Source: a virus. From it: DNA of 64,000 nt. The notes beneath the pieces were generated by a model, which saw only the letters and a list, made by a program, of their open reading frames with translations, did no database searches and was not told the DNA's origin. A program made the position numbers and the translations under genes. Positions within the stretch are counted from its first letter, which is position 1. Each line of letters begins with the position of its first letter. Of the stretch, positions 17,301 to 51,255 are shown in pieces. The DNA lies in the IMG/VR virus record IMGVR_UViG_3300021962_000040, positions 53,754 to 117,753 of that record, one strand, 5' to 3'.

Positions 17301-17536
17301 ATGCAAATAGCAATTTTATTGGAGAATTCATATCTTTACAATATAATCCACAATCAGGTAATTTTGATACAATGCCGGCTGAGAGAGTAAACCTAACTCA
17401 GATGATGCAAGAAAGAAATGAAACAGTTGGATATATTGATAACTTGGTAACTAATTATGTTGGAACATTGTATCAAATTGCACAACAGAATAATAGAGAC
17501 CAAGCAAATACTAAGAAAACCAAAGCTAAAAAATAA
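14378..17536 (+). CDS. Large helical virion/ejection protein of unknown function
   Basis: A 1052-residue protein starting MATYTQGYQPYMPDWQPFTPDY, followed by long helical segments with Gln, Lys and Glu. Its N-terminal 'PDWQPFTPDYKFL' signature is characteristic of a protein that sits directly upstream of the RNA polymerase gene in crAss-like phages, where it is likely a cargo or ejection protein. No catalytic motif or membrane segment is evident. A 59-nt gap upstream holds an AT-rich palindrome (AAGTTTTTAAAACTT near 14339). It is followed after 15 nt by the giant polymerase gene in the same direction. Confidence 0.65.
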   Translation: MATYTQGYQPYMPDWQPFTPDYKFLSDILEVKTNRYNTNYKALNDLYSKVVYSDLSRKDTQDMRNQYAETLGKQLEIVSGMDLSVAQNVDSAKQLFKPFFEEDIIVKDLVVTKQYQNEMQYASMLMNSPDKDQREMYWQTGVKALEYQMEDFKNASADKALTMGAPRYTPDADLNEKAIEYLKKQGLDVTQEYVDETGYWIVKDRNGNLVTQQAYVMAQKALSDDPMVQQAYYTDAYVKSRDFAKSGIDAGQFRSVDEGQAAWAKETISRVEAQIAARSIKQKDKVEELKNANINWDEYVKQSGIIPGSDEDKEYVTQKRSYDAALSGLQLTEETLKNSQGSPDQSTQGLLNRAYNLIMGYNMQNDLSAAAVAFSNINKSRELKVNEYKKQQLQFQHDFSKMAAEYQYDVALEGLKQQNRVELEKVKQKLADPFGAMISDILSGGGANYGQLGTEEVMTDPETGKPLDPKDADYVKIINGKYNNLRADVVEDQVNLALNALEKIEPNANNYYKVNEQIKGDLPTIKRELLKPENAGIADKFYKDIANKFRDSEQLMAQNPNFVKRNGGADYQDLNSQFEKTTAKRMQFDAAVTQGNQIYYDNFMKVVTSELGDQAKYVKKEFENGAPKIFKNNQGGQIDLKSESEFIADYVAAAKAKQIKKGDGGKGGHIGWSYDTPERSDRYTAGMIIGGLAPSPQYLTERAQSRPTTGGWRFNENAAKSEAAAAYSRQKQLINGTLNGTLETIAEQDGKKIDAKVRMFQPWDPYQYMRGKSLQEMETGDALKNPFYVTQVDPVSMRKDIGQVQALADVVKQVNQTPSQDLIFHQGDIGKIEGVEMNVPDPKARKIYDLWLQDMARFRDPKASKTNIPSVTIGYAPAYGPPDQLAKDKAAYVMTFNTAWLKSLQGTSDKPGAIGLKDVEDYQQITISFPQTADMNPKKAGEYNFSATVNEVTYSPNKQVVHNIQGGGKFRVYPDANSNFIGEFISLQYNPQSGNFDTMPAERVNLTQMMQERNETVGYIDNLVTNYVGTLYQIAQQNNRDQANTKKTKAKK

Positions 17537-17551: not shown

Positions 17552-20500
17552 ATGGCTGATAATATTACTCAACAACTAGAGCAAAATGGGGCTTTACCAA
17601 GTGCGGAGCCTATGATTCCTTCAAGCGGTAGATTTGATTATCAACCGGTTGCTGATTTATTGTTACCTCCCAACACTCCTGAGTTTACGGAGCTGATGAC
17701 CCCGGAGTATAAAGCAATGCTTGAAAGGCACGCAAGTCAAATTAATAGTTTTGCTCCTGCTGCTATTGGTAATTTAAATGACCCTAATCCAACATTAGCT
17801 ACAGATACCCTTAATCCTTTTAGACAAAAGGTTGGTTTAGATTTATCTACACCTGAAGGTAAGATGCAGTTGTTTAGAAATGCTGGAATGAGTGCTAAAC
17901 CTACAGGTGAAGTAAAAATTGCAGATCCTTTATATGCTGGTATTAGATCACATAACTTTGATAGATACTATAAGCATGCTGAGTTTTCTAATTTAGGTTG
18001 GCATCCTTATGCAAATAATGAGGAGACTTACAATGCAAACTCTTCTTGGTGGGATGATGCTGGCCGTATGATGGGTCAGTTTACAGGTTTAGCAGGTACA
18101 GGTTTTGTTTCAGCTTATAGATCTATTGGTGATTTATTTGATGATGATGATTATTTTACAGGAACTGATTTAACATCAGCTTCTGAATTTGCTGATGCAA
18201 TGCGTATTGGTAATTCTACAAGAGGTGGTTTTGGTGGTGGACTCAATAATTTATTATTACAGTCTGGTTATACAATGGGTGTAATTGGATCTATTGCTGT
18301 AGAAGAACTTGCCTTATGGGGAGCTGCTGCTGCACAAGGTGGTCTGAACCCTGTATCAGATGCGGCTGCTGTAAGCAGAACTGGTTGGAACATTGCTAGA
18401 CTTGGTAAGACAATTGCTAATACATTTGATTTAAGTAGACTTACCAATGCAACTAGAAATATGTATAGAGGACTTAGATCTGTTGATTCAGCTAAGGATG
18501 TATATACAGGATTTAAAGCAGGCGGAAGATTTTTGGCAGATGTTATTGCTCCAGAAACTGCACAAGCAATTAGAAGTTTAACTAGTACAGCTAATGGTGC
18601 TCAGAACTTGAGCAATATGGCTAAGGTTGCTAAAACCTTTGGAGGCTTTTATAGAGATTTGAGATCTTTGAATTTGGCACTTGCTGAATCTAAGATGGAA
18701 GGTGGTATGGTTTATCAACAACAGTTGGCAAATGGTTATGCACTTAAAACTCAAATGAATAATGGACAGCCTTTAGATGAAGCTCAAATGAACGATGTTG
18801 TTGAAAAAGCATCAAGAGCTGCTTACTATACTACATTATTGAATGCTCCAACTATTTATCTTTCTAACCAACTTGTATTAGGTAATGCATTTGGTGCATA
18901 CAATAGAACTTTATCAAGAGTACTTCAAGATAATGTTGAAGGTCTTGGTAGAAGAGTTATTAAAACACAAGGAACTAGAGTAGCCGGTAAAATGGCAACT
19001 AGACCTTTTGCTGATGCAGGAACGGGTGTTGTTGGATATTTGAATAGAATGAAAGCTGCTGGTGTAACTGGTAGTGCAAAGATGGCTGCACAAGCTTCTT
19101 TAAGATACTTTTCAGCAAACTTATCTGAAGGTCTTCAGGAAGTTGCACAGGAAGCTATTGCTGTTGGTACTAAAGGATATCACCAAGCATTATTAGAAGA
19201 TCCAGCTTCAGGAGGTAGAGACTTATTAATGGGTACAATTTCTTCAGCTGTTGGTTCTCAGTTTAGTGCTCAAGGTTTTGAAACCTTTATGTCTGGATTT
19301 ATGATGGGAGGTATTGTACAAGGACCTCAAAAATTATTCTTCCAAGGTGTACCTACTTTGTATCAAAAGACTTTTGAGAAAACAAAGTATGAAGAGTACA
19401 GAAAGAATAAGCAAGAATTTATTGATGGATTAGTTAAATCAATGAATGATACATATGAGGTTACTGCAAATAACCCAATGGAATCAATCTTTGATACCAA
19501 CAAAACAAACTTAGTTACACAAAAGCAAGCCTCTGTAGATATGATGCAAGCTGCTTTTGACCAATCTAATTTTGATTTTGTGGATGCAAAAGACTTTTCT
19601 AAGTTCCAAGCAATCTACACAGTACTTGCAAATGATAAAGGTGGTGAATTCAAATCTCAATTTGAAGACTACCTTAAAATGACAGATCAAGAATTAGCAG
19701 AAGCTTTCCCTACAGCAAAATCTGAGGTTAAGTCAGGTAAGCTAAGACAGAGAATGCAAGATATGATTAGCAAGATTGATGAACTTGAAGAATCATATTA
19801 TGTAAATAAATCTAAATTCAACAATCCTTTTGATGCTTCTATCTATAAGTTTGGATCAAGAGAATGGAATGAAGAGAAGATCAAACAAATGTCTTTTGAA
19901 CATGCAAGATATCTTTACATGTTTACTGAAGATGGTTTCAAAAGAGCTGTTGAAAGATCACAAAAAATTTATGATGAACTAGCTGCTGATCCTATTGTAG
20001 GTAAAATGGCAGCAAGTGATATCACCGTATTACTTGATGAGAACAGTCTTCAAAAAGAAATTGCAACATTACTTGCTGAGATTGGAACTTTAGATGCAAA
20101 AGAAAATAAAGATCTAATTGATTCAAAGACTGCAAAGCTTGAAGGTCTTAACGGCATCCTTTCTGTATTATATGCAGAAGAGAATATTACCAAGGATGGT
20201 GCTTTTGACAGACGTAAAGTAGGTAAGTTAAGAGGAGCATTTGAAAAGTATGTACAGAAACTTGCAAAGAGCAATGATTCTTTCAGTGATCCTGATAAAG
20301 TTTCTGAGGCATTAAAGAAGATTGTAGACTACCGTGAATTAAAAGGTAGAGCTATTGCTTATAATAAGTCTATTGAGTACATGAACAACCCTGAAAGATT
20401 TGATGAAATCCGTAAGAGAAGTTATGACTTCATGAAAAATATCTACAAGAATAGAGCAGAGGTTTTCAGAAAATCAGTAAAGAGTTATGTTGGCAAGATT

Positions 20501-23500
20501 GAAATCAATCAATTCTTAAATGAACTTGCAAAACTGGAAGTATATCCAGATCCAAAAGAAGTTGCTGAGTTTATGAGCAATGGTGATGTAGAAGTACTAA
20601 AAACTTTCTTCACTGAGAATGGTGTTGTCAATCAAGTATCTGATGAAGATATCTATAATGAGATTCAAGCCTTAATCAATATTTACAAATCAGCTGTAAC
20701 TCCACAAGCTACAGAACAAACTGCTGAAGAAAAGATTGATTCTAAAGAAAAGCAAACTAGAAAGAAAGACACTGCTGATATTTTATCAGAAGCAGATCTT
20801 GCTGAGGATACTCCTGAAGTAGAAATATTTGGTACAAAGGAAAATGATAATCCGGTTATTAAAGAGGTACTTGAAGAGAAATATAAAGAGTATGTAAACC
20901 GTCAAGCTAACTTAGGTCAAGTTCCTGTTCAAATGGATACTTGGGTTAATAGTGCTGAGGCAGCTAAGTATATTACTTCATATGAGGCTTTAAAGAAACT
21001 TTGGTATAAAGAACTTCAGAAGACTGGTGAGAAGGCTGAGGCAATTACTGGTAAGTTTAATTCTGATACTGGCTTTAAAGATTGGTTGCAGAAACAACAA
21101 ACCAATGACCTTGTTAGAAAGGTGTTGAAAAGCACAGAAACAAACTTCTCTGACTTTGTAGAAATAGAACAAGACTTTGAAGCAGGGGATGTAGAGGATG
21201 CTGATATTGGAGATGTAAAAGCTGTTGGTAAAGTAATAGACAATACTTTCAATAGTGTGCAGATTGTTGAGACTAAAACATCAATTGTAGATCCTGAGAC
21301 AGGTATGCCTGTTCCAGTTACTCTTTACTCTGTAAGAGATAAAAAGGGTAAACTATTGACTGAAGATAAAACATCTGCAGCCGGTGTATCTGCTGGTGCA
21401 ACATTTGATAATATCAATAAAGCTAGATCAGCTGCTAAGAAACTTGATGATGTATCAGTTGATACTACATCATTCCCATTTGGTGGAATGCAGGTTTCTT
21501 ATGGTGCAACTGTAACTGATAAAGAAGGTAACCGTTACATGGTTATTGGTACACCTGCTGAGGTTGAGAAAGGTAAAAAGCTTTTCTTACTTCCTGTAGA
21601 TGAAATCAAACCTGGTCAATCTAAACAAGATAGAAACAAGTTATCTAAGAAAGTAACTGAGGTAGAATTTAAGAATGATTTTACAGTAGATTCTTTCAAC
21701 TTTAGTAGAGTTCCAAAAGATGCTTCTAGACTATTGATTAATGAAGCTATTGAAGTTTATCCATTAGAAAATGGAATGGGTACTGCTGCAACAGAAGGTA
21801 TCTTAATGGCTAATGCTAGACTTCAAACTATTTTAGAAAACTTAAGTCCTGAAGAGAAAGCAACTCTTACATTGGTAATCAAAAGAAATCCTAATGGTGG
21901 TAAATCTACAGGTAAAAAATATCAGACAAGAGATGAGGAGGGTAACTTTAAAGAAGCAAACCCATACATTAATAGAGTATCTGAACCATTTGCTGTAGGT
22001 ATTGCTTTTGGAAATCAAGTTACTGCAAGTAGAATCAATCAGATTATATCTGAAAAAGGTATGGTCCCAAGTTCACATCCTGATGGGATATTTGCATTTG
22101 TAAGAACAGGTTCTATTCAGTTCTTAAATGATAAGAATCAAGTTGTTAATCCTTTGAATCTTACTAAGGAGATTATTGAGAATACCTTTACAATTTATCC
22201 TTCACAACAAGCAAATGCTGTTAACACAGTTGTTAACAATTTTGCAATTCAACAAGCTTTTGTTGATCAAGTTGCAGATAAGATGGAAGGACAGGATTCT
22301 GCAATTATTCCTATGACAGAATTTTCTGAGTTTGGATTTAATCTTGGATCTAGTGTTGATTTAAAGAGCAACCCAAAATCAGTTAAGGAACTTAAGTACA
22401 ATACAGTTGATGGTGTAAGAGTTCTTTTAATTAATGATAGATTAAAAGACGGGACTATATCAACACGTATTCTTGCTGACATTGAAGACATTGATGAGAG
22501 AGAAGCTTTTGTTGAGAAATTAAAAGGTGATCTTGCTATTTCACAACCCGGCTTATTTGAAAGCTTACAGAAGTCTCAGAGATATGTTGCTATAATTAAA
22601 ACTCCTAATGGTATTTATACAGGTGCTCCGCTTAAGAGTGAGAGACTTGATCAAAATGCAATTTCAGAATTAGGAAAAGAACTTGTTGCTGAAGGTATTA
22701 GAACTATCAATGCTAACTTAGAAGGTGACGGTTCTATTGAAACTAAAACTATAAAAGATAAAAACTTCAATGTTGAGTTTAACAAAGCATTTAATAAAAA
22801 GCTTTACATCACAACAAACATTGAAGGTTATACTGTTGAGATTAATGTTAACTCAGATGGTACCTTTAGAGCTGAGCTCTATGATAAAAAAGGTAAAGCT
22901 CTTATTGGTAGCTCATACTTAGCAGAGGGCCGTCAAGGAACTCTTGATTATGAAGGTCAAGAGAATCCTGATATCATAGAAAGATTATTAGATAATCTTC
23001 AGAAGAAAGGTATTGAGGCTAAGATCAAAGACATTGAAGCTCAAAAGAAAAAAGGAGCTAAAGTAGAAATCCCAGAGTGGACTAAGCTTAAGCTTTCTGT
23101 TAATAATGTAAGAGCATCTTTTGAAGAAGATGCTACTATTGATACAATTCTTGATAGCACAGTTACCAGTCTTAATGAAAATGTAAGAACTAATTACAAA
23201 CTAAGATTGAATGCTGACGCAAATGTAATTGCAGAAGCAATGTTATTTGCTTCTACTTCTACAGCAAATACTTTTGAAAATTTTGTTAATACGGGTGTTG
23301 TTCCTGAAGATGTTCTTTATGATATTGCTAATAAGATTAAAAATAATCAAACACTAACAACTGAAGAACAAGCAATCTTTACAGGTAAAACTTCAAGAAT
23401 TAATCAAATTCTAGTTGAACTCAAAAATGAAACTGCTGAAGAAGCTTATGACAGTGTTTTAGATATGTCAGATGAAGTATTTGAAGAATATGCTAAAGCA

Positions 23501-26500
23501 GACTTCAAAGAACTTCCTCTTGAGATGAAGCAGCAAGTTGCAAATAAAATTGCTAGAGGTGAAAAGCTTTCTACAAGAGAAGAAAGAATGGTGAAGAATG
23601 CTGTATCAGGACCAACCATTCAATTACTTGCAGGAAAAGCTCAAAGAGATAATAAAGTTGATGCTACAGCACAATCTCTTAAAACTGAATTGCAACAAAA
23701 CAAAGCAAGAATAAAAGAGATTGAAGCTGAGATTGACAATGCTGAACCTAACATGGTTAAAGCAAATGAGCTTATTGAAGATAATGAAGAAAGAGCTAAG
23801 TTAATTGCACGTAACAGGGAGATTGAAAGAAAGCTTCTTGCTAACAAGATCATCAGTGAAGAACTTACAGATACTGAAGTTGCTGGTATTGATGAGTTTG
23901 TATTATGGGCTAATGATAATTTGCCAGACTTTATTAGTATTGAGGATATTAATAACTTAAGAGACAACCTTGTTACCAATGGTGTAAGAGTTGGTGCTTT
24001 TGTTCTTTCTATGAATAACATTGCTGGAGGTATGAAAGTTAAAGGAACTTTGTATACTGGTGCTAAATCACCATACAAATTCCATGAGGCTTTCCACGGT
24101 GTGTTCAGATCTCTTCTTACAAATGCTCAACAAGATAAACTTTACAAGATTGCTGAAGCAGAAGTAAAGAGAAAACTTGGAAATAAATTTGAAGAAGAAT
24201 TAGAAAAGTTCAGAAATTCTGCAGACTCATATAAAGCTATGAGCAGAAAAGCTCTTGAGAAAGAGTTCTATGAAGAATACATGGCTGATGAGTTTGAGAA
24301 GTTCAAGAAGGATCCAAGATCTACTAAGACAGATTCTGCAATTAAGAACTTCTTTAACAGAATTATTGAGTGGATTAAATCTTTGTTTAACAGATACAGT
24401 CCTAATGAATTACAAGATCTATTTAGAAACATTGACTCAGGTAAATTTAAATCTGCTTCTCCAATCAACAATAGATTCACAGATAGTCTTGCAACAGGTG
24501 TTACTTTAAATGCCAATAAGATTATCCCAGTTGAATTAGTTGAAGGTGAAGGTGGTCAATTTGGATATAGAACTTTAGATAATGACTTTGCAAGAAGCAT
24601 TGTGTCTTCTATTTCTGCTAGAGTAATTATGCTTGAGCAAGAAAACAAAAATGCTAAGTTCAATTTGAAGCAAGCTGTTAATCAATCTTTTGCTTTATTC
24701 AAATCTTTATACAGTACTAAGAGAGAAGCATATAACTATATGTCTCTTACTGCAGATCAAAAAGGTAATTTAAGAGAGATTGAAAAAGCCTTTACAGACT
24801 TCTCTGATTTTATCAAGGATGCTGTATATGACGAGCTTAAGTATTACGAAATTAAATCAAGAAACATTGAAGAAGACAATGACGCAATGGATGATGAGGT
24901 TGGAGACAGACTACGTACAACAGATCAGTATGATAAAGATCTAACAAGTATTGGTGGTTTCTCTGCTTTGTCTTCTTTCTTGAGAAAATATATTGGTACA
25001 ACACCTATCACTGAAAAAGATGAGTTTGGTAATGATTATCTTATTGAACCACAGAGAGATGAGAAAGGTGAGATTGTTCCAGGCACTGGTGAGAAGTTAA
25101 TGATTACTGTAGATTTTGCTACAGCTTACAATGGTTTCTTAAAAGCCGTTAAGAATCTTAATGACCCTATTCAAATTTTGCAACAGTTATATTTCTTTGG
25201 TATTAATAACCCACAGACAGAAGCTGTTGTAAATAAATTATTTGCTGACTTAGGTATTCAATGGGAAGGTCAACTTGAAAATGGAGAGCTTCCTCAATAC
25301 ACAAGTGAAGTAATTGAAAAATTCAAGGCAGGTGAAATTATTACCGCTGAAGAATTAAATCAAGGTGTGAAAAGACCTTTATTATTACAAGCTGTATTGA
25401 AAGGTTTTGAAAATGCTAGAGTAGATTACTTATTCATTCACAGAAGTTCTGGAGATAAAGTATATACCTATACTGCTGCAAACAGAGATGATGCTCATAC
25501 ACAAGTTGATAGATGGGGACAAGCTTATATTCAAAAGGCTAAGACTCTAAGAACTAATGAAGGAGTTAGAACTGTTGTAGTAAATACTTTAGATAAATTA
25601 TTGAACAGACTTCAGTTTGTAGCGGGTGAAGGAACTACAAGTCAAAAAGCATTAAAGACTTTAACTGATACTAAGCTAAAAGAGTTTGCAGAACAAACAG
25701 CAAGAATTCTAGAAGAGAATGTAGGTATTAGCATTAGTCCTAAGTTCATTGAATTTAGTGTTGCTAAAAATATAGAGAAGCCTACAAGATATCAGAAGGC
25801 TTTGCTTAATGCAAATTCAGATGAAAGACCATTGAGCTACCAAGATGTTGTTGAGCTTAAAAAGATTATTGAAGCAAATCAAGATCTATATAGTGATTCT
25901 GAAGAAGGTGCTAAGAACAGACTTAGAAGAATTGCATTAGGTAATGCAGCCTTTGATGAGAACGTTGGATCATCTGTATTTAAGAACCCTAATGGAGACT
26001 TAGTTTATGCTCACCAATTACCATCATTCCACTTGAAGCAAATTCAATCATTGAATGATGTTGCAGGTGAGGGTGCTAAGATTGATGAGGTTAGAAACTC
26101 AGATGAATATTTATTGAATAACTTCTTGTTAAACAGTGAAGCTTTCAAACAGCTTTCTGCAGAAGGAAGATTAAGAATCTTGAGAATTGCCGGATCTAAA
26201 GTTGGTAATATAGACTTAGATGAAAATGGTTTGATGTCAGAAACATCTGGTGCTTCACCTTCTTCTGGTAAAACCTATGGTGATTCTACTCCAAGAGAGT
26301 TTATCATTAACTTGATTAATGCATACACCTACGCAATTGATCCATTAACTGGTAAAGTTGCAAGTGTGTCTTGGACTAAAGAAGATGGAACAATTGAACT
26401 AGCTGCTATTGCTCCTGTATTATTACGTGTACTTGAAGCATCTAATACAGGTGACATGATTGCTTTACCTGTGGTTAAAGCTGTGATGAAAAACAATGCT

Positions 26501-29500
26501 GGTAAAACTGTTCTTACAGAAACTGCAATAAACAGTATTGTAAACAATGTAGCTGCAGAGTTTGCAAGAATCCAAAAAGAATCTAATCCTGAGACAGCTA
26601 CTCAAGAATTGCATGTTGGTTACAATGCTCTTGCAATTCCTAATAGTGAAACAGGAACTGAAGAAATTATTCCTATCAATGTTGATAGCACTAATGTAAA
26701 TAAAGCAAGGGCCTTTAATTTCCATAAGACTGGAGTATTGTTAAATCCTCTTGGTCAAAAGAAAGAAAGCCGTCAAGGTATTGTTACAATTCAAACATCT
26801 GACATTAAGTTAGAGAGAATTCAAAAAGGAGAACAAACAGCTGTAGTCTATGACCAAAAAGCTGCTGAACAATTCATTGGTTTCACATCTGTTGGTGTTG
26901 TCAGAGATGCAATCATCAAAACTAAAGATGGAGAAAAGAATGTACCAATGAAGATTGTTGGTAGAGGTTTAGTTAGAGTAACTCCTGAAAACAGAGAAAG
27001 AATCTTTGAAGACCTTAAAGGTTCTATTTCCTTGATTAAAAATGATCAATTCAAATATGAGGTAAGACTTGGTACCAAGAAGTTCTATGTTGAATCTATT
27101 AATGAGCAACAGTTCTTACAGGGAAGAAAGCCTATGTATATGTATGAACTAATTGATGCTGAGCTTGCGGACTTTGAAGAGCAAACAGCAGCATTGATTG
27201 GTGGCTTTGATCAACAAGGATATCTTGATAAATTAACAGAAGCTGCACGTTCTCCAGAATATGCGGGTCTTACTTTCACAGAAGCTCTTACCAAACTTGG
27301 TATTAAAGAAGGTGAACTAAAAGCTTTCTTGGAAAACAGACTTAATCAAGAGTTCAATGAATTTAATATTGCATTGGATGAATTGATTGGCACTCAAGGT
27401 GGTTTAGGTACATTCTTATCTAATGGTATTCAAACTGGTAATGAAGCAGTAACTGCAGATACAATTAAAACCGGAAGACTTCTTAATATCTTACCTGAAG
27501 ATAAAGACTATAACCTTAGACAGATCTTCTTTAATGATTATATTAATACAACAGCAATCAACCAAATCTTATTGGGTGATAGTGCCTATAGTTTAAAAGA
27601 TGCTGTTGATGAGATTAAGAGAGCAAAAGCACAATCAGCATCTTACTATAGTGCTGCAAGTTCAATTGCTGCTCCTGAGTATGGTATTTACAAACCATTA
27701 CAAGAGTTCTCAATCTTTGAAATGACAGAACCTTCTGTTAATGCTACGCATAATCAAGGTGAAATCAAGAATGCAGATGCTCAGTTATGGATGACTACAA
27801 AAGCATTCCGTAATTTCCAGTACGGTTTTGGTAAACTTAGTCCTGCTCAAGCACAATTGTTTGATAGAGTTGAAAGAGGAGAGGATATTACAGCTGAAGA
27901 TATCTTTGGAACAGAGGAAGAATCTGGCTACGCTAAAAGACAAGAGATGCTTAACTCTCAAAAACTTGTGTATGCAGATGGAAAGACTTTTGTTAAGATG
28001 TCAGCATTCCCTCTTTTACCACAGTTTACTTCTATCAAAGATGAGAATGGAGAGTACACTATTCCTAAACCAAACAAGGTAGCTCTTCACAATTTAAGAG
28101 TTAAGCTTGAAGCATTTGAAAGAGAGAATGATACAGTTGCTGTAGCAGCTCCACGTTCTGCCTTGAAGATGATGCAGAAAAATGTATCTAACATTCATGG
28201 TGTTACAGGTACTGCCGCTCCTTTAACTAAACAACAATCAGTTACTCTTGATGCTAATTTCTTAGGATTACAAGTAATTAACCCTTCAAATAAAACAGTT
28301 ATCACTGATCCTACTCAAGTTAAATCACTTGTGACATCAGAACAAAATGATGCAACTGAAGTAGTAATCAATGGTGAAAAGTTAACTCTTGGTGAAGTAA
28401 GAGCTGCTTATCACAAAGCAACTAGAGATAGAGGTAACTTGAACTATATCAACAAAAGAAACTTGGTATTCTCTTTTGATATTGACTATGCAATGGATGA
28501 ACTTCATAAGAGTGTTAAAGAGAATGCAATTACTGCAGATCTATATACATACTTGAGATATGCTGAAGCTAGTCTTGCATCTAATGGTTCTTCAAGTCAC
28601 TTGATGGAATTGTTCTCTCTTGATGAATCAGGAAATCAAAAGTATAACTTGAATAATCCTCTTACTTATGATAAGTTCTTGAACTTGTTCATGAGCTATT
28701 TTAGTAAGAGTGTATTTAATGAAAAGGTTCCGGGTGCTACAATCTCTCTTGTTTCAGACTACGGTGTTAGAATTTACAGACGTGTTCTTTCAGTAGATGA
28801 AAATGGAATGCCTGATAAGCATGAGATTATTACTGAGGCTCAGTATGAAGCAATGGCTTCTAAGCCACAGATTTTATTTAATATTGACGAAGGAAGCTAT
28901 CCAGGTAATGATGAAAACTTAACGGGTCTTAAAGATGCTGTTAAAAAATCTAAAGGTGCCGGTGTTGTAATCATTGACCGTTTGAGACACAACATGAAAG
29001 AGTATAACTCAAAAGGAAAAGCAACTGGAGAAAAATATGGTGAGATGTTATTACCACCTCATCACAAAGAAGTAATGTCAGAACTTCAACAAAAAGGTAA
29101 GAGTATTCCTGATGTTGTTGGAAAGATGTTTGCTGTACGTATTCCTTCACAGGATAATCACTCAACCTATAACGTTAAGTGGGTTGACTTTATGCCTGCT
29201 GTTTATGGTTCATCTGGTGTATTTGCAAGAGAACTTATTGAGATATCAGGAGCTGACTTTGATATTGATAAGGTGTACACTCAATTCAAAGAGTTCTTTG
29301 AAAAGGGTGGAGAGTTCTTTGAATATGGTAAAGCCAAAACAGAAAAAGAACAATTTGAAGATTATGTACAATATGTAAATAAGAAAGTACAAGATACAGA
29401 TTCTATTTACGGTGAAGCTTTATACAAGTTCAAAGGAAGAGGTACAACTAATTCTTTGACTGCAGAACAAACACTTGGTGCAAGATCACAAGGATTTACA

Positions 29501-32500
29501 GAAGATGCAATCAATGCATTGTCAGTTCTTGGAATGCCACGTTTCTATGCTGAGTACTCTACCTATAGAAAGAAGTTTGGTCATGAACCATATGCAGCTG
29601 CAATCAACAATGATATTCTTGATTACAAGTTTGCATTGATGGGTAATGATAATGTTACAGAAAGAAAGCCTTTGTTCTTAGATAAGAATGGAAATACTAC
29701 AACTGTAAATACAGGTAAGCCAGCTCTAGATGAGAATGGTAAACAAAAGACAGCTGTTCCAATTTCTTATGAAGCTGCAGATATGGAAGTATTAAAAGAT
29801 CTTTGGGATGAACTAAAGACAGAACTTCCTGAATGGGCCGCATTATCTGAAGAAGAAGGTATTGATGTAGATAACCTTTATGGTAAGCTTAGAATGTTTG
29901 CTAATAACAAAGAAGGATCTAGATCAATTGGTGCTGTAGTATTACCTAACTTGTATTTGAACTTACTTCAAGAGTATGATGTCAAAATAGAAAGCATAAA
30001 AATTGCTGGTGAAGAAGTTATGCCTCAAATTAAATTTGGAGGTCTTACATTCAGCAGCTTTAAAAATACATATGAGTTATATGAGAATGGAAGTCAAGGT
30101 CAAAGAACTCAATATATCTTATCTGCTTTAATTACTGCAGCAACGGATAATGCCAAAGAAAGATTGTTGGCTAAGCTTGGTCTTAATATTAATGCCCTTT
30201 CTGTTGTAGCAAACTTAGTAGCTTTGGGTGTTCCAGTTAAGACTGGTGTACTTCTTATCAACCACCCTGTAATTAGGCAGGCTTACTTTGAAGAGACTAA
30301 CTCACCTGAAGATGAGCCAGTTACAGCGGCAAATATAATCAGAGATAGAATTGCATTATTACAATCAAGTTTCTTAGAGACTGAGGAACGTGGTAAGAGA
30401 ACTTCTGTTACTCAAAATGCTTTGATGCAATCTATTGAGGCTCCATTAATTAAACCTACAGCAACTGCTGAGGATATGGCTAACCTTAGAGAAAGCGGTG
30501 AAGTTGATAAGATAGATATCATTGAAGAAATTTCTATTCTAGAACAGTTCTTAAATGCTGCTAACTTATCTAACACTACAAGATACATGGGTGATCTATT
30601 AAATCTTACTAATGGATTAGGTCAAGGTCTTGAAGCAATTGATAAAAGAAATGCTGCAGTTGAAAAGCTGGGACTTAATCTTTCTAACAAAGACTACGCT
30701 GCATTAGGTGTTGATAAACCTATGATTGATGCTAGACCTATCTTTAAAGGTAATACATGGCAAGCAGGATATCTTGAAAGATTTGAAGAGTTCACCAATA
30801 ACTTATTACCTAAAGTTGTTCTTTCAGCAAGCCCTCTATTCAGAAGAGTTACTGATGAGATTGTATATCAAAGTACAATCAACAGCTTACCTTATGAGTT
30901 AAGAGATAGAGCTAAAACTAAAGTGGCAAAAGACTTTTTATCTTACTTAACTATTAAAGCTTACATGCATAATGGTATGGTAAATAATTCTCAGTCAGTT
31001 GCTACCTTAACAAATGGATTAATTTATAATCAAGAAGGTGTTGAGAATATCACTAAGGTTGTAGATAGATTACGTTCAATAGAAGACAATAAAAATAACT
31101 ACTTCTTGAATTCCTTTATTATTGCTGAGAAAGCAAGTCTTAAAGGTAACAAGACAGGTTTGAACTTGGCTAGTGCAAATACATTCCTGAGATACAATGA
31201 TTCTCAAAAGCTTGATATCCAAAATGGATTCATGACTTTATTTGCTAATCCATTGACTAGAGAAGATGCAAGAACATTGGTTAACTATATGATGGTTAAA
31301 GATGGTCTTCAGTATGGTTATAAATCACTAGTAGAAGCGGTTGCTCCAATTGCTCTTGACAATTACTTATCACATATTGATACAGTACAAGCTGCAATGG
31401 AAAGAACTGATGACGCAATATTTAAATCTACCTTTGGTGTTACCTTAGATGATTTGGTAATTCAATTCATGCAAGGCTATTTAACATCAGCTGCAAATGC
31501 TTATGTTATCAAAAGAGTTAAGGCTGCAATATATGCACCTGAAACTAAAGGTATCTTGGTTGAACCAAAAGTATACACAAAGAATCTTGCTGCTGCAAAT
31601 CCAGAAGCTATCTATGTATTTGGTGATAACGTTGCAAAGCAAGGTAGTGTAGGAAATAGTTCTGTTAGAGGTTTAGAAAATGCCTTTGGTTTATTCTTTA
31701 AGAAAGATCTAAATAGAACTGAGTCTTCTTACTATACAAATGCTGAAGCTGGTGACTTCATCACAATATTTGATGAGCAAGTAGAGCAATTAACAAATAT
31801 GATTGCTGAAGGAAAACAAGTTATTTTCCCTAAAGACTTCATTACAACTCCTGAACTTGCAGACTTTAAAAAGAATAGCCCGGCTGTATTTGAATATGTA
31901 AAGGCTAAGCTTAAGCAAGATCTTAACTATAACATTGATCCTAAAGCAAAACTTACTGCAGAAGAGAAGAAAGAAAAAAGAGTTGCAGATCCTGCAATAC
32001 TTAGAGCTCCTGTACATGTTAATGCTTCAGGCTTGGTACCTAGATTGGTTGTAGACTTGTATGCTGGAATCACTAAAGTAGAGAGAAATGAAGCTGTATC
32101 AGCAATTAGAAATACTCCAGCTGGTTCAAAGCTTACTAAACAATTGGCAGATACATTCTCAAGAAATAAGAAGGCTTTAAGAAAAGCAGGTTTTAGAAAT
32201 CTTATCAACTTGAAAAAAGGTTCTGACTATCATACTGAAGTTGAATTTCCAATGGTAATCAGACAGAATGTTGGATCAGACTATAAAGCTGAATACAAAT
32301 ACTACATCCTTACTAAAACTCAAAGCTTGTTCCCTAAAGCTAATCTGATTAACTTTAATAACAAAGCTGTTGGTAGTTATGCTGAATATGTAGAGGTAGA
32401 TATCAAAGGATCAACTTCACAGAATCCAATTGGATTTATGTTTGGTGAAAGACCTACAACTAAAGAATTAAGAAACTTTGTTAATAGTGTTAACTCAAAT

Positions 32501-33022
32501 GATCCTTTTGATGCAAACTTTGATTCAATTGATCTTGATGCTGCACTGGATGCAATTGATTTGGCACCTGGTATTGCTCTTTCTGCAAATGCTGTGGTAG
32601 TTGCAAATGAAAAAGGTATCCAAGTTGATGGTGAGAATATCAGCAAACTTGATCCGGCATCACAAGAGGTTGAGGCTAAGGATCTTGTAGAACCTGAAGT
32701 GGAGCCAACAGGTAATGAGGATCTATTTGATGAAGGTAAATCAATTGATATCTCTGCTAACTCATTCTTCTCAACACTTCTTGCTGACAATGATGCTGCG
32801 GAGAATAAATATCCAGAGTTAACAACTTGGTGGGATACTAATGTTGATGATCCATTTAGTCAACAAGCATTAGATAATAGAAACAAACTTAAAGCTCACA
32901 GAGATAATGCTGATATGAAGTTCAAAGTTACAGACTTAGATGACTTTATCCAGATGTTTGAAGATAGTGAGTTCACAAATGAACAAGAATTTTTAGATCA
33001 CTTTAATAATTGTTATCTTTGA
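17552..33022 (+). CDS. Giant virion RNA polymerase fused to a zincin metallopeptidase domain
   Basis: A single uninterrupted ORF of 5156 residues. Residues 1-700 have Gly-rich hydrophobic stretches that could insert into membranes during ejection. A zincin motif lies at H2178-E-A-F-H2182, with a downstream EEYMADEF helix giving a likely third ligand. The RNA polymerase core lies around 3700-3910: K3725-VPG of the first double-psi barrel, a GEMLLPPH segment, then VRIPSQ and finally D3902-F-D-I-D3906-K, matching the metal-binding DxDxD of the second barrel. Near residue 4690 a YVFGDN domain follows, of a type seen in phage proteins. In crAss-like phages this polymerase is carried in the virion and transcribes early genes; the zincin may process the polyprotein. 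Domain calls are firm, processing is inferred. Confidence 0.92.
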   Translation: MADNITQQLEQNGALPSAEPMIPSSGRFDYQPVADLLLPPNTPEFTELMTPEYKAMLERHASQINSFAPAAIGNLNDPNPTLATDTLNPFRQKVGLDLSTPEGKMQLFRNAGMSAKPTGEVKIADPLYAGIRSHNFDRYYKHAEFSNLGWHPYANNEETYNANSSWWDDAGRMMGQFTGLAGTGFVSAYRSIGDLFDDDDYFTGTDLTSASEFADAMRIGNSTRGGFGGGLNNLLLQSGYTMGVIGSIAVEELALWGAAAAQGGLNPVSDAAAVSRTGWNIARLGKTIANTFDLSRLTNATRNMYRGLRSVDSAKDVYTGFKAGGRFLADVIAPETAQAIRSLTSTANGAQNLSNMAKVAKTFGGFYRDLRSLNLALAESKMEGGMVYQQQLANGYALKTQMNNGQPLDEAQMNDVVEKASRAAYYTTLLNAPTIYLSNQLVLGNAFGAYNRTLSRVLQDNVEGLGRRVIKTQGTRVAGKMATRPFADAGTGVVGYLNRMKAAGVTGSAKMAAQASLRYFSANLSEGLQEVAQEAIAVGTKGYHQALLEDPASGGRDLLMGTISSAVGSQFSAQGFETFMSGFMMGGIVQGPQKLFFQGVPTLYQKTFEKTKYEEYRKNKQEFIDGLVKSMNDTYEVTANNPMESIFDTNKTNLVTQKQASVDMMQAAFDQSNFDFVDAKDFSKFQAIYTVLANDKGGEFKSQFEDYLKMTDQELAEAFPTAKSEVKSGKLRQRMQDMISKIDELEESYYVNKSKFNNPFDASIYKFGSREWNEEKIKQMSFEHARYLYMFTEDGFKRAVERSQKIYDELAADPIVGKMAASDITVLLDENSLQKEIATLLAEIGTLDAKENKDLIDSKTAKLEGLNGILSVLYAEENITKDGAFDRRKVGKLRGAFEKYVQKLAKSNDSFSDPDKVSEALKKIVDYRELKGRAIAYNKSIEYMNNPERFDEIRKRSYDFMKNIYKNRAEVFRKSVKSYVGKIEINQFLNELAKLEVYPDPKEVAEFMSNGDVEVLKTFFTENGVVNQVSDEDIYNEIQALINIYKSAVTPQATEQTAEEKIDSKEKQTRKKDTADILSEADLAEDTPEVEIFGTKENDNPVIKEVLEEKYKEYVNRQANLGQVPVQMDTWVNSAEAAKYITSYEALKKLWYKELQKTGEKAEAITGKFNSDTGFKDWLQKQQTNDLVRKVLKSTETNFSDFVEIEQDFEAGDVEDADIGDVKAVGKVIDNTFNSVQIVETKTSIVDPETGMPVPVTLYSVRDKKGKLLTEDKTSAAGVSAGATFDNINKARSAAKKLDDVSVDTTSFPFGGMQVSYGATVTDKEGNRYMVIGTPAEVEKGKKLFLLPVDEIKPGQSKQDRNKLSKKVTEVEFKNDFTVDSFNFSRVPKDASRLLINEAIEVYPLENGMGTAATEGILMANARLQTILENLSPEEKATLTLVIKRNPNGGKSTGKKYQTRDEEGNFKEANPYINRVSEPFAVGIAFGNQVTASRINQIISEKGMVPSSHPDGIFAFVRTGSIQFLNDKNQVVNPLNLTKEIIENTFTIYPSQQANAVNTVVNNFAIQQAFVDQVADKMEGQDSAIIPMTEFSEFGFNLGSSVDLKSNPKSVKELKYNTVDGVRVLLINDRLKDGTISTRILADIEDIDEREAFVEKLKGDLAISQPGLFESLQKSQRYVAIIKTPNGIYTGAPLKSERLDQNAISELGKELVAEGIRTINANLEGDGSIETKTIKDKNFNVEFNKAFNKKLYITTNIEGYTVEINVNSDGTFRAELYDKKGKALIGSSYLAEGRQGTLDYEGQENPDIIERLLDNLQKKGIEAKIKDIEAQKKKGAKVEIPEWTKLKLSVNNVRASFEEDATIDTILDSTVTSLNENVRTNYKLRLNADANVIAEAMLFASTSTANTFENFVNTGVVPEDVLYDIANKIKNNQTLTTEEQAIFTGKTSRINQILVELKNETAEEAYDSVLDMSDEVFEEYAKADFKELPLEMKQQVANKIARGEKLSTREERMVKNAVSGPTIQLLAGKAQRDNKVDATAQSLKTELQQNKARIKEIEAEIDNAEPNMVKANELIEDNEERAKLIARNREIERKLLANKIISEELTDTEVAGIDEFVLWANDNLPDFISIEDINNLRDNLVTNGVRVGAFVLSMNNIAGGMKVKGTLYTGAKSPYKFHEAFHGVFRSLLTNAQQDKLYKIAEAEVKRKLGNKFEEELEKFRNSADSYKAMSRKALEKEFYEEYMADEFEKFKKDPRSTKTDSAIKNFFNRIIEWIKSLFNRYSPNELQDLFRNIDSGKFKSASPINNRFTDSLATGVTLNANKIIPVELVEGEGGQFGYRTLDNDFARSIVSSISARVIMLEQENKNAKFNLKQAVNQSFALFKSLYSTKREAYNYMSLTADQKGNLREIEKAFTDFSDFIKDAVYDELKYYEIKSRNIEEDNDAMDDEVGDRLRTTDQYDKDLTSIGGFSALSSFLRKYIGTTPITEKDEFGNDYLIEPQRDEKGEIVPGTGEKLMITVDFATAYNGFLKAVKNLNDPIQILQQLYFFGINNPQTEAVVNKLFADLGIQWEGQLENGELPQYTSEVIEKFKAGEIITAEELNQGVKRPLLLQAVLKGFENARVDYLFIHRSSGDKVYTYTAANRDDAHTQVDRWGQAYIQKAKTLRTNEGVRTVVVNTLDKLLNRLQFVAGEGTTSQKALKTLTDTKLKEFAEQTARILEENVGISISPKFIEFSVAKNIEKPTRYQKALLNANSDERPLSYQDVVELKKIIEANQDLYSDSEEGAKNRLRRIALGNAAFDENVGSSVFKNPNGDLVYAHQLPSFHLKQIQSLNDVAGEGAKIDEVRNSDEYLLNNFLLNSEAFKQLSAEGRLRILRIAGSKVGNIDLDENGLMSETSGASPSSGKTYGDSTPREFIINLINAYTYAIDPLTGKVASVSWTKEDGTIELAAIAPVLLRVLEASNTGDMIALPVVKAVMKNNAGKTVLTETAINSIVNNVAAEFARIQKESNPETATQELHVGYNALAIPNSETGTEEIIPINVDSTNVNKARAFNFHKTGVLLNPLGQKKESRQGIVTIQTSDIKLERIQKGEQTAVVYDQKAAEQFIGFTSVGVVRDAIIKTKDGEKNVPMKIVGRGLVRVTPENRERIFEDLKGSISLIKNDQFKYEVRLGTKKFYVESINEQQFLQGRKPMYMYELIDAELADFEEQTAALIGGFDQQGYLDKLTEAARSPEYAGLTFTEALTKLGIKEGELKAFLENRLNQEFNEFNIALDELIGTQGGLGTFLSNGIQTGNEAVTADTIKTGRLLNILPEDKDYNLRQIFFNDYINTTAINQILLGDSAYSLKDAVDEIKRAKAQSASYYSAASSIAAPEYGIYKPLQEFSIFEMTEPSVNATHNQGEIKNADAQLWMTTKAFRNFQYGFGKLSPAQAQLFDRVERGEDITAEDIFGTEEESGYAKRQEMLNSQKLVYADGKTFVKMSAFPLLPQFTSIKDENGEYTIPKPNKVALHNLRVKLEAFERENDTVAVAAPRSALKMMQKNVSNIHGVTGTAAPLTKQQSVTLDANFLGLQVINPSNKTVITDPTQVKSLVTSEQNDATEVVINGEKLTLGEVRAAYHKATRDRGNLNYINKRNLVFSFDIDYAMDELHKSVKENAITADLYTYLRYAEASLASNGSSSHLMELFSLDESGNQKYNLNNPLTYDKFLNLFMSYFSKSVFNEKVPGATISLVSDYGVRIYRRVLSVDENGMPDKHEIITEAQYEAMASKPQILFNIDEGSYPGNDENLTGLKDAVKKSKGAGVVIIDRLRHNMKEYNSKGKATGEKYGEMLLPPHHKEVMSELQQKGKSIPDVVGKMFAVRIPSQDNHSTYNVKWVDFMPAVYGSSGVFARELIEISGADFDIDKVYTQFKEFFEKGGEFFEYGKAKTEKEQFEDYVQYVNKKVQDTDSIYGEALYKFKGRGTTNSLTAEQTLGARSQGFTEDAINALSVLGMPRFYAEYSTYRKKFGHEPYAAAINNDILDYKFALMGNDNVTERKPLFLDKNGNTTTVNTGKPALDENGKQKTAVPISYEAADMEVLKDLWDELKTELPEWAALSEEEGIDVDNLYGKLRMFANNKEGSRSIGAVVLPNLYLNLLQEYDVKIESIKIAGEEVMPQIKFGGLTFSSFKNTYELYENGSQGQRTQYILSALITAATDNAKERLLAKLGLNINALSVVANLVALGVPVKTGVLLINHPVIRQAYFEETNSPEDEPVTAANIIRDRIALLQSSFLETEERGKRTSVTQNALMQSIEAPLIKPTATAEDMANLRESGEVDKIDIIEEISILEQFLNAANLSNTTRYMGDLLNLTNGLGQGLEAIDKRNAAVEKLGLNLSNKDYAALGVDKPMIDARPIFKGNTWQAGYLERFEEFTNNLLPKVVLSASPLFRRVTDEIVYQSTINSLPYELRDRAKTKVAKDFLSYLTIKAYMHNGMVNNSQSVATLTNGLIYNQEGVENITKVVDRLRSIEDNKNNYFLNSFIIAEKASLKGNKTGLNLASANTFLRYNDSQKLDIQNGFMTLFANPLTREDARTLVNYMMVKDGLQYGYKSLVEAVAPIALDNYLSHIDTVQAAMERTDDAIFKSTFGVTLDDLVIQFMQGYLTSAANAYVIKRVKAAIYAPETKGILVEPKVYTKNLAAANPEAIYVFGDNVAKQGSVGNSSVRGLENAFGLFFKKDLNRTESSYYTNAEAGDFITIFDEQVEQLTNMIAEGKQVIFPKDFITTPELADFKKNSPAVFEYVKAKLKQDLNYNIDPKAKLTAEEKKEKRVADPAILRAPVHVNASGLVPRLVVDLYAGITKVERNEAVSAIRNTPAGSKLTKQLADTFSRNKKALRKAGFRNLINLKKGSDYHTEVEFPMVIRQNVGSDYKAEYKYYILTKTQSLFPKANLINFNNKAVGSYAEYVEVDIKGSTSQNPIGFMFGERPTTKELRNFVNSVNSNDPFDANFDSIDLDAALDAIDLAPGIALSANAVVVANEKGIQVDGENISKLDPASQEVEAKDLVEPEVEPTGNEDLFDEGKSIDISANSFFSTLLADNDAAENKYPELTTWWDTNVDDPFSQQALDNRNKLKAHRDNADMKFKVTDLDDFIQMFEDSEFTNEQEFLDHFNNCYL

Positions 33023-33025: not shown

Positions 33026-36000
33026 ATGGCATGTTTTAACAGAAATACCCAAGAATATAAAGACCTATTAGGTGCTTTCACTAGCAACATGCAGGTTGAT
33101 GGGATAATTACAGCTTGGCAAAACGTAAATAATACAGAAGCTTTTCCTTCAGTTGCTCAAGCTAACCAGTTTTTAAAAGATAAAAAAGTTGCTTTTAGTC
33201 TGCAGCAAAGAAATTTTGCTGAAGCAGTTTTAGGTAATCTTAGTAGAAAGGGTTTGATTAGCAAGTATAATAACTCATACTATGTTAATAACTCAAATAG
33301 ATCTACCAGAGCCTATGACGCTACAGTATTGAAGAGTAACTTAGATAAAGTAAAAAGATATCTTGATATTAATAACATTCCTTTAGATGCGGTAACGTTT
33401 GATACAACTGCAAAGTCTGTTAGAATATCAGTTAATGAGAGCATCTTTACTCCTAAAGATATGCTTGAATCAACAAGAGGTTGGGATAGAACTAGAAGTA
33501 GACACGTTGTTGTCCACTTAATGAGAATGTTTCCTAATATCAAAGTTGCTTTAGTAAGTGTAAGTAAAGCTCAAAAATATTATGATAGTCTACCTGCTTC
33601 TCAAAAAGCAACTATGCCTTTTGAAAATGTAAGATCTTACTTTGATCCAGTAGCAAACCAAGTAGTTTTAATTGAGGGTAGAGTTACAGATGAAACTGCA
33701 ATTGAGGAAATGCTCCATCCTTTTACGGATGCTTTGTATGTAGATAATGGAGCTCTATTCAATTCTCTTTTGAATGAAGCAAAAGCAATGTTCCCTGTTT
33801 TAAATCAACAGATAGAAGATGCATACTCTGATAAAAGAGGGTTTAATCAAAAGCATAGAGACCTTGAACTTGTTACCCAGGCTTTGACAAGACACTTTAA
33901 AAAAGAGTATGAGGAAAATCCAACCAAGACTTTCTTAGAAAGAATCAAAGACTTCTTTAAATGGTTTGCAAGTATTGTAAACAACTTGCATAAGTATGTT
34001 ACAGGAATTAATTTGAATGGTTTCAAAAGAGACAGCTCCTATTATATGGGAGATACTGCTCTTATGGAACAGGAAGAAGGTGTTGAGGAAGAAGAGATTA
34101 TTGCTCCTATAAGAGAAGGTATTATTACAATTGATACCAAAGATATTAAACCAACAACCACATTGTCTGACATTGCCAGATTATTAAATACATCTGGAAT
34201 TCAGTTTAATGCAACAGCAAGAGCTGATGCAAAAATTAGATACTCTCTAACACCTGAGTTACAAACAACAGTTGATTATGCATTAAGACAATCTAATGCA
34301 ATTCAAGCTGAGGTAGTTAAAAGATTATTCCATCAAGCTCAAGCTACAAAAGAAGAAGTTGGTTCTATGGCTGCCGGTATGGAAGGTCCTATTGTTGTAC
34401 TCAATGAGGAGAACCATGTGTACTATAACTTATTAGACACAACAGAAACATTTAAGTCTACTACAGAAAGAATCAAAGGAAAACTTTCTGAAGAAGATAT
34501 GTTTAATAAGAAACTGAACATTGATCTTGGTAATGACTTTGATAAATTACTTCAAGGTTTGAGTTCAGATAAATCACTGGATGAAGTATTTTCTCAAATG
34601 AATATTCTCAATAGAGAACAAGCTGAGAAAGCTTATCTTCAGTTACAAGAAAATCTTAGAGAAATAACTAGAGGTGGTGGTGTTGCCATTCCTCAAGTAG
34701 TTGTTTATGATCAAAAGTCACAGACTGCCGGTTCAATTGATATTTTAGTTGTACTGCCTGATGGCAAACTTAGAATTGTGGATCTTAAGACAAGTAAGAA
34801 CTCTGTTAGAGATATGGTCTTGAGTGAACAAGCTAAAGCTAAAGCTGGGTTACAAGGCAAGTCTAGATATGATCAAGAATACAAACTAGGAGATGACAGT
34901 GATTTAAAAAGAGCTGGTATTGAAAGTCTATCTACAAGAGCCCAACAAGGTATTCAAGTTAACATCTATAGAAGGATGCTTGAAAACATGGGTTATGAAG
35001 TTGATATGAGTGACATGGGAGCTTCTACTTTCCATGTTCAAGTTGGTATTAAAGGAAAAGATGCTCAGCAAGAATTTACAGGTGAATTTAGATCTGATGA
35101 GTGGGTTTCACATCCTGCAAGTCAGAATGCATTGTATGTAGATTTATTAGTACCTAAGAATGTAGATGCTATTTCTTTAGAGGATCTAGAGAAAAGTATT
35201 GATAGTGCATTGGATAATCCTGTCAATTGGGATTCTGAATTAACAGACTCTGAAAAGATACCTGAAGATACTGAGTTCACAGATCCATATGTAGAGTATG
35301 AAGTAATTACCCAGGCCCTGGAGAATTACAGAATGGCACTTACTACCAAGCTAAAAGCTATGGAGCAAATTAAAAGTGCTATCTACATGGATAGAACTAG
35401 AGAGCAGACTGAAGAGAATATCTTAAATGCTTTGTCTGCAATCAGTATGGCAATGGCTGAAGGTCCTAAAGCAAGAGCTGCTTTATTTACAGAACTTCTT
35501 AGAGATGCCTTTAAACAGATTAAGAACTTTACAGACTACGTAAATAATGTAGACAACTTTGATAAGCCTGAGTATATTACTTATGTTCTTAACTTCAATA
35601 GATTCATTAAAACATTTGAAGGATTATACTCAGTAAAAGATCTAGAGGGTATCAATGCTACTCAAAAATCTTTAATCTTACAGTTACAGACTCAATTGAA
35701 TAACTTGGGTGTTAGTAACTCAAAACAAGAAGGTCTTATCAATGAGGCTATTACAAATTATGTAAAAGCACAAATTAAAAACTGGTCTACCAGAGATGAC
35801 CTTACGGAAGATGTACTCAATGACTTGATGAAACATGCAAGAGATATTGACTACATGGAACTTGGTACAGGTGATCTTGCTACTTCTAGAGATACCATTC
35901 TTGCTGTTATGGATAAGATCTATAAAACTAAAAAGCAAGAGTTGTTAGACAATGTTGAAACAAGAAACAGAACAATTGCCGGGTTAGCATCAAGACTTCA

Positions 36001-46903: not shown

Positions 46904-47133
46904 CACCAAAATATAGATTAAGAGAAGGAGTAACTACCTTTATTGGATTACTCTTTTTGATTTCAGCATTAGCTATGGTTGTAATGAATCTTTTCTTTGA
47001 GAAAGACTTTGCAGCTTGGTCTACAATCATTCCTATCTCATTACTGGGATGGGTATTCTTGTGGGCTAAAAACTCTTTACTTGAGGGTATTACTTTAGGA
47101 CTATTTAAAGTTAAAGGAAATGAAGAAGGATAG
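46900..47133 (+). CDS. Holin-like membrane protein
   Basis: A 77-residue protein with two hydrophobic segments (VTTFIGLLFLISALAMVVMN at 11-30 and IIPISLLGWVFLWA at 43-56) and a charged C-terminus, the size and topology of class II holins. It overlaps the u-spanin gene (ATGA) and the following basic gene. No endolysin gene is recognised beside it, so its partner might be elsewhere or be the transglycosylase domain at 8115. Confidence 0.55.
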   Translation: MTPKYRLREGVTTFIGLLFLISALAMVVMNLFFEKDFAAWSTIIPISLLGWVFLWAKNSLLEGITLGLFKVKGNEEG

Positions 47134-47425
47134 CCGTTTAGAAAAAGCCGGTGTAGAAGGTTTTAATAAACCTAAAAGAACACCATCACATCCAACAAAG
47201 TCTCACGTTGTTGTAGCTAAAGAAGGAGAGCAAGTTAAGACTATCCGCTTTGGTCAGCAAGGTGTTAAGACTAATCAAACTGTTGGTCAGAGAGAGGCTT
47301 TTAAATCTAGACATGCTAAGAACATTTCTAAGGGTAAGATGAGTGCGGCTTATTGGGCAGACAAAGTAAAATGGAGCCCAAGCAAGACTGCATCACCTAG
47401 CAAGAAATGGAAGAAAGGCAGCTAA
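47120..47425 (+). CDS. Small basic conserved protein (RFGQQGV / SAAYWADKVKW family)
   Basis: A 101-residue Lys-rich protein. It has TIRFGQQGVKTNQTVGQREA followed by FKSRHAKNI, KGKMSAAYWADKVKWSPSK and a basic tail. This RFGQQGV...RHAKNIxKGKMSAAYWADKVKW arrangement is one I recognise as a conserved small protein of unknown function in many phages. It starts 14 nt before the end of the holin-like gene. Likely nucleic-acid associated given its charge. Confidence 0.7.
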   Translation: MKKDSRLEKAGVEGFNKPKRTPSHPTKSHVVVAKEGEQVKTIRFGQQGVKTNQTVGQREAFKSRHAKNISKGKMSAAYWADKVKWSPSKTASPSKKWKKGS

Positions 47426-47440
47426 AAATTCAGTAATTAT

Positions 47441-47457
47441 TTGTATATTAATATATA
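47441..47457 (+). promoter_or_regulatory. Candidate phage promoter (TTGTATATTA motif)
   Basis: TTGTATATTA followed directly by ATATATAA, 20 nt before the fibre gene start at 47470. It is the fourth copy of the motif found in rightward intergenic gaps. Confidence 0.4.
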
Positions 47458-47469
47458 ACAACAACTACA

Positions 47470-48888: not shown

Positions 48889-49060
48889 TAACTACTGATA
48901 TCTGGACTTTTTTAAGAAAGTTATCAAACTCTCTCTCAGAAATCCATCTGGGTTTTTGTAAATACATTACAGGTGAATGAACTGACCCATCTACTTTATA
49001 GATAATCACGGACTTTCTAATACTTCTACTTTTGTCTATATAGTATTTTACTTCCGGCAT
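48878..49060 (-). CDS. Small phage protein of unknown function
   Basis: A 60-residue protein starting MPEVKYYIDKSRSIRKSVII. It has no recognised motif or membrane segment. Its start lies within the end of the upstream gene (13-nt overlap) and its end overlaps the next gene by 11 nt, the same packing seen for its neighbours, which supports it as real. Probably one of the accessory small proteins of the early leftward block. Confidence 0.55.
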   Translation of the reverse strand: MPEVKYYIDKSRSIRKSVIIYKVDGSVHSPVMYLQKPRWISEREFDNFLKKVQISVVNES

Positions 49061-50024: not shown

Positions 50025-50028
50025 TGCT
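50003..50028 (-). repeat. 26-bp repeat at a gene start, copy 1
   Basis: Identical over 26 bp to 50209-50234. It covers the codons for MTNNKQQ plus four bases upstream, so two adjacent genes have the same N-terminus. Marks a duplication of the start region. Confidence 0.8.
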
Positions 50029-50029
50029 T

Positions 50030-51244: not shown

Positions 51245-51255
51245 TGTTTCTTTTT

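Follow-up and report, generated by a model that had tools for sequence, protein, structure and literature searches.

A giant fused virion RNA polymerase protein of a Crassvirales phage and a rule of single cysteines at the facing ends of its cargo

How phages move enzymes of 150-570 kDa through a narrow tail and keep them functional is an open question, and it arises for the crAss-like phages, which are the most abundant gut viruses. We analyzed a window of 64,000 nucleotides (bases 53,754-117,753 of a 117,753-base IMG/VR virus record), in which a preliminary description had noted one giant protein joining polymerase, protease and YVFGDN sequences and had proposed that it is cut into parts. 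Is this giant a polyprotein awaiting cleavage or the form in which the enzyme is delivered? The gene proved to be a single intact ORF of 5,156 codons with zero internal stops, and the motifs were located as described: K3725-VPG at residues 3725-3728, VRIPSQ at 3862, DFDID at 3902-3906, the HEAFH of a zincin at 2178-2182 and YVFGDN, previously placed at about 4690, at 4688-4693. A virion polymerase, a probable zincin and a DUF7831 (YVFGDN) domain are, as had been claimed, parts of one chain. The ORF and its features are as follows.

17552..33022, + strand: giant AB cargo protein, 5,156 aa, crAss001 gp47-like (A) fused to gp50-like (B); sole Cys is residue 5154
17552..24586, + strand: module A, residues 1 to about 2345 (boundary approximate), homologue of crAss001 gp47, a virion cargo protein
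23804..24541, + strand: probable zincin-like metallopeptidase domain at the end of module A, residues about 2085-2330 (HEAFH, EEYxAD; match to the crAss001 gp47 C terminus)
24083..24097, + strand: HEAFH motif (by motif position)
24599..33019, + strand: module B, residues about 2350-5156, homologue of crAss001 gp50 and phi14:2 gp66, catalytic RNA polymerase
29255..29269, + strand: DFDID catalytic metal-binding motif (by motif position)
31568..31906, + strand: DUF7831 (YVFGDN) domain, residues about 4673-4785 (PF25176, 76.4 bits against a Pfam gathering cut-off of 27)
33026..38809, + strand: module C, a separate protein of 1,927 aa, homologue of crAss001 gp49 and phi14:2 gp65 (RNA polymerase-associated cargo); sole Cys is residue 3

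The phage belongs to Crassvirales because of its capsid (crassvirus major capsid protein, PF23898, 1.1e-32), terminase (TerL, phrog_6681, 1.6e-65) and portal (phrog_6547, 3.4e-90) proteins. No close relative was found in INPHARED, and a tblastn search of the INPHARED phages with both halves of the giant returned a DUF7831 match only; the link from the giant to known phages was obtained via crAss001. Relatives came from IMG/VR, where 180 zincin-encoding stretches were found and 80 were kept as an environmental clade. The giant has collinear, full-length counterparts there at 45-92% identity, the zincin and the polymerase motif lie in the same ORF at 74 of the 77 loci where the zincin was located, and SGADFDID is invariant across 30 relatives. 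A chance origin of the ORF and its motifs is thus excluded. The giants of L053 and L060 contain frame breaks, which are probably sequence errors or strain defects; those of the near-identical L058 and L062 are intact.

Module A aligned with crAss001 gp47 (hhalign 97.5%, E 8e-12) collinearly over gp47 residues 50-2317, and module B aligned with crAss001 gp50 (hhalign 100%, E 1e-47) over gp50 residues 12-2332; the relative L005 also matched phi14:2 gp66 by blastp (8e-10), and module C matched crAss001 gp49 (blastp 1.5e-28). Full-length homology together with the DxDxD motif identifies module B, at the level of sequence, as a crAss-type virion RNA polymerase (gp50/gp66), and RNA synthesis has reportedly been shown for the phi14:2 polymerase. 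Direct PDB searches with module B gave no match, as it is too divergent. In crAss001, gp47, gp50 and gp49 are all virion cargo (PMC10172136), so that two known cargo proteins have been fused in the giant. The modules of crAss001 (gp47/gp50/gp49) and phi14:2 (gp67/gp66/gp65) are homologous to A, B and C, have the same roles and carry facing terminal cysteines, but they are three separate proteins, whereas here A and B are fused and a DUF7831 insert is present; the cargo of both phages was detected in virions by mass spectrometry (PMC10172136, PMC6235969; phi14:2 record).

That the parts are separate elsewhere, as the preliminary description had it, is borne out by crAss001 gp47/gp50 and by Dulem virus 41. 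Across the crAss-like genomes we saw three layouts: A, B and C as three proteins (Steigviridae, Dulem virus 41), A fused to B with C separate (Suoliviridae and Fipvunavirus) and A separate with B fused to C (Intestiviridae). Among the genomes examined, a full fusion of A, B and C was not found. The Suoliviridae A+B fusions measure 4,460-4,946 aa and have the motif order of the giant. The proteins of Suoliviridae cr1_1 (KNV31_gp076, 4,551 aa) and cr50_1 (KNV26_gp059, 4,774 aa) and of Fipvunavirus Fpv1 (gp33, 4,401 aa) are likewise A+B fusions with a C gene downstream and a cysteine at the C terminus; they differ from the giant in that the gut members have a few more internal cysteines and Fpv1 gp33 lacks a zincin motif at the corresponding place. 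The Intestiviridae (p-crAssphage, crAss002) have the same three modules, with a zincin near the end of A and cysteines at the facing ends, but fuse B to C rather than A to B. GenBank already holds the product names "RNAP associated protein/zincin protease fusion" and, for the Intestiviridae B+C protein, "RNAP catalytic subunit/RNAP subunit fusion," and a review has noted that RNA polymerases of crAss phages can reach about 6,000 aa (PMC10136315). Fusion of these cargo proteins is, accordingly, already known from the public records of relatives; what was unexpected here is the cysteine rule described below.

Does the protease in the chain indicate that the giant is cut? HEAFH and, downstream of it, EEYxAD do not vary among 41 non-redundant relatives, the HEXXH site thus being accompanied by a downstream Glu ligand. 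The domain matched the crAss001 gp47 C terminus (blastp 1e-6, profile 3e-8), with the HEAFH site at residue 2157 there and 2178 here, and a PDB profile search gave PPEP-2 (E 0.017). The AF2 model of the domain has a mean pLDDT of 57.5, with a confident helical core only and strands unresolved; Foldseek returned nothing significant for it, and VIA-align scored Z only 2.5 against the zincins 6fpc (83 aligned) and 4pkt (79 aligned). We conclude that a zincin metallopeptidase probably lies at the end of module A. The preliminary description had gone further, proposing that the giant, with this protease in its chain, is cut up in the virion or once it has been ejected. The invariance of HEAFH, a natural gene split that falls just past the zincin and the processing of P1 DdrB before packaging (PMC5512222) all favor such cutting, and zincin self-processing was proposed for N4-type proteins in 2017 (Iyer et al., PMC5512222). 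However, module A also ends in the zincin in phages that encode A and B by separate genes (crAss001, cr85_1, Dulem virus 41 and Intestiviridae), and it is absent at that place from the fused Fpv1 protein as well as from the split proteins of DAC15, cr111_1 and phi14:2, so the presence of the zincin does not track fusion; nor does any conserved short motif stand out at the A-B junction. Further, the N4 vRNAP and P23-45 gp96, giant vRNAPs that each have a metallopeptidase domain, are packaged uncut (PMC5512222, PMC10770324), and a solved structure of recombinant N4 vRNAP, at full length, retains the HExxH domain (PMC12633501). The step from a protease in the chain to a giant that is cut is thus unsupported, and we regard the model of cutting by the zincin as improbable. 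Judged by sequence and by analogy, cutting inside the virion is unlikely, and the giant is most likely packaged uncut; cutting after ejection may occur.

The cysteine content of the cargo points in the same direction. The giant and module C comprise 7,083 residues together and contain two cysteines in all, one at each facing end.

33011..33013, + strand: TGT codon for Cys5154, which is the giant's sole cysteine and is followed by two residues
33032..33034, + strand: TGT codon for Cys3 of module C, which faces Cys5154

The rest of the genome has 15.1 cysteines per 1,000 residues versus one in 5,156 for the giant and one in 1,927 for module C (Poisson P of 1e-32 and 7e-12, respectively). All 39 complete, non-redundant environmental giants carry their sole cysteine 2-4 residues before the end, with none in the 184,560 residues of their bodies, and their module C partners have a cysteine near the start in 39 of 39 cases; six seeming extra cysteines precede the Met start, at positions 1-5 of ORFs that were delimited from stop to stop. 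In the named phages examined, all from outside the zeta group, a C-terminal cysteine was present in 10/10 A proteins and 8/8 AB fusions, neither of which had one at the N terminus (0/10 and 0/8); an N-terminal cysteine was present in 13/13 C proteins and 4/4 BC fusions, with none at the C terminus (0/13 and 0/4); and separate B proteins had cysteines at both ends (7/7). The rule is therefore a cysteine on both facing ends of each unfused junction and none at fused junctions or outer ends. It held without fail for the 42 named proteins, the 39 environmental pairs and the two distant phages, although the relatives surveyed share ancestry and these counts are not independent events. For example, the sole cysteine of phi14:2 gp67 is its last residue, 1797, those of gp66 are residues 3 and 2179 of 2180, and that of gp65 is residue 3. 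Some gut phages keep internal cysteines (0-7 per protein). The crAss002 RNAP fusion (KNU86_gp33; L104, position 14088) fits the rule only when its start is moved to an in-frame MSC: the annotated start is 32 codons too early, and a start at MSCTPSNPK agrees with the relatives.

The rule extends to phi17:2, in which gp039, gp038 and gp036 obey it and a 517-aa protein lying between two giants has cysteines only at residues 4 and 516, and to Leptolyngbya phage Lbo-JY46, where single cysteines occupy residue 1552 of 1552 and residue 4 of 2748; the environmental loci L122 and L124 also fit. In phi17:2 (L119, 20996-34500), we saw no crAss-type DFDxD polymerase motif in gp036 or gp038, and the polymerase assignment in epsilon phages therefore needs another look. 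The cyanobacterial Lbo-JY46 (L120, 8420-21326) encodes a module C homologue with the same facing-cysteine pair and another protein, of 674 aa, whose only cysteine is residue 5. A cause at the DNA level, such as read-through or conserved junction DNA, was ruled out: the junction gaps measure 2-15 nt in mixed frames, and crAss001 gp47 and gp50 lie on opposite strands. A full-text literature search, whose scope stopped short of key subscription papers (those on the phi14:2 polymerase and, from 2018, on the crAss discovery), found no description of the facing-end rule.

The rule implies selection for joining the parts rather than separating them, and so it favors the fused giant as a linked delivery form over a polyprotein awaiting cleavage. 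We lean, on balance, toward the giant being the main virion RNA polymerase cargo, with cysteine-purged parts coupled end to end and gene fusion as a substitute for coupling. In this mechanism, module A, an ejection-type cargo ending in the putative zincin, would be fused to module B, the two-barrel polymerase, and packaged with module C, and A, B and C would cross the tail in order, as a single train. Internal cysteines would have been purged, as in the N4-type vRNAPs, where their absence is known and has been explained by tail passage and the oxidizing periplasm (PMC2784036, PMC3915230, PMC3715699); here, too, we propose that the purge arose because the chain must cross the tail unfolded and meet an oxidizing periplasm. 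One cysteine kept on each facing end of an unfused junction would couple the neighbors, most simply through a disulfide that the cytoplasm of the new host could reduce, and gene fusion would exchange this link for a peptide bond. In the present phage, A and B would thus be joined by fusion and AB and C by cysteines. The zincin would then be an A-module enzyme directed against host or envelope targets, or would serve a later processing step, and would not be for undoing the fusion. The wider proposition, that in Crassvirales and distant relatives a multi-part RNA polymerase is delivered as a train of covalently joined proteins, with redox-reversible links through single facing cysteines and gene fusion as the alternative at each joint, we consider evenly poised; both the train and the thiol coupling are what we infer from the sequences.

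The cytoplasm of the producing cell is reducing, and any bond would therefore form late, after lysis or during passage through the periplasm. Tail parts of crAss001 are disulfide-bonded (PMC10172136), which makes oxidized bonds in the virion plausible; the crAss001 proteins were run on a reducing gel, which is uninformative on linkage (PMC6235969). A and C, with one cysteine each, could also form A-A or C-C dimers unless neighboring residues give specificity. N4 gp50 (3,500 aa) and P23-45 gp96 (5,002 aa) resemble the giant in size, in their metallopeptidase domain and in lacking internal cysteines; unlike the giant, each is a single chain with no junction, and each has zero cysteines even at its ends. 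The N4 polymerase is, moreover, an unrelated T7-type enzyme and P23-45 gp96 a tape measure.

Three other readings of the terminal cysteines were weighed. They might jointly bind a metal or Fe-S cluster, or a shared third protein such as the portal or a scaffold, so that the ends are held without a direct disulfide. This would cover the facing cysteines and their loss on fusion about equally well and suits reducing conditions in the cytoplasm, and a virion with several cargo copies could offer more ligands for a metal; yet each end offers one cysteine with no conserved His or second Cys adjoining, and the last five residues of the 39 giants contain no His. We consider it unlikely. A second possibility is a tag for packaging or sorting, recognized on each polypeptide. 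It would agree with the presence of at least one terminal cysteine on every unfused cargo polypeptide, but it leaves unexplained that two occur on B alone, that A and C are always without one at their outer ends and that fused junctions have lost theirs, and it seems very unlikely. Finally, the existence of all three layouts implies recurrent fusion and fission, from which functionless remnants of an ancestral polyprotein or splicing junction might be left. Against this, every lineage has kept the terminal cysteines and lost nearly all others, and the offset of the terminal ones from the end varies, which fits a flexible tether and not a splice site; we find remnants hardly credible. End-to-end coupling, our preferred reading, makes the near absence of cysteines except at facing ends a directly testable mechanism of ordered protein delivery. 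The rule predicts which proteins are coupled, their order and which start codons are wrongly annotated and, if true, a full A+B+C fusion would be without terminal cysteines.

In size and domains, the giant also recalls the polyvalent proteins (Iyer et al. 2017, PMC5512222), which are injected, of great length and composed of many domains, zincin and effector domains among them; the probable zincin and DUF7831 occur here, and ART-PolyVal in the relative L091. It differs in that its core is a crAss-type polymerase; the 2017 paper makes no mention of crAss phages (PMC5512222). The DUF7831 profile matched only 13 of 41 relatives, and a PDB profile search with the domain gave no credible match; by its distribution, DUF7831 is an accessory, lineage-specific insert of one sub-clade. 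Module B has two insert-accepting sites, of which the C-terminal one carries DUF7831. The other, near residues 3040-3225, holds ART-PolyVal in L091 and about 1,000 residues in L007/L055. In L091 (12512-14095), the ART-PolyVal (ADP-ribosyltransferase) domain lies within the giant of a close relative and scores above the Pfam cut-off. In L007 (5336-8632; same contig as L055), the roughly 1,000 extra residues in the polymerase half include HEYAH, a second HEXXH, a SLOG-like segment (YAGIGSRSTDP...GADAAF) and a VFVFGSN segment, and the giant reaches roughly 6,250 aa. The RNA polymerase protein of cr126_1 (L109, 13266-20474) is annotated with DUF1768 (NADAR), another accessory domain in the class.

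Two further proteins in the block of the giant contain zero cysteines, and their position and composition suggest that they, too, are cargo.

14378..17536, + strand: 1,052-aa protein upstream of the giant, likely ejected or cargo protein
9802..11805, + strand: 667-aa protein, likely cargo

The tail-region proteins encoded just upstream of the window (G000, 47056-52267) and at window positions 1987-8115 are the opposite of the cargo in their very high cysteine content (52 Cys in 805 aa, 22 in 304, 13 in 187 and 34 in 2,042) and are probably disulfide-stabilized tail parts. The 2,042-aa protein at 1987-8115 has a weak von Willebrand factor A match, below the cut-off, and occupies the position of the crAss tail stabilization protein. 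Elsewhere in the window (52312-53151), the phage genome encodes a spore photoproduct lyase-like protein (PF20903, 2.8e-17).
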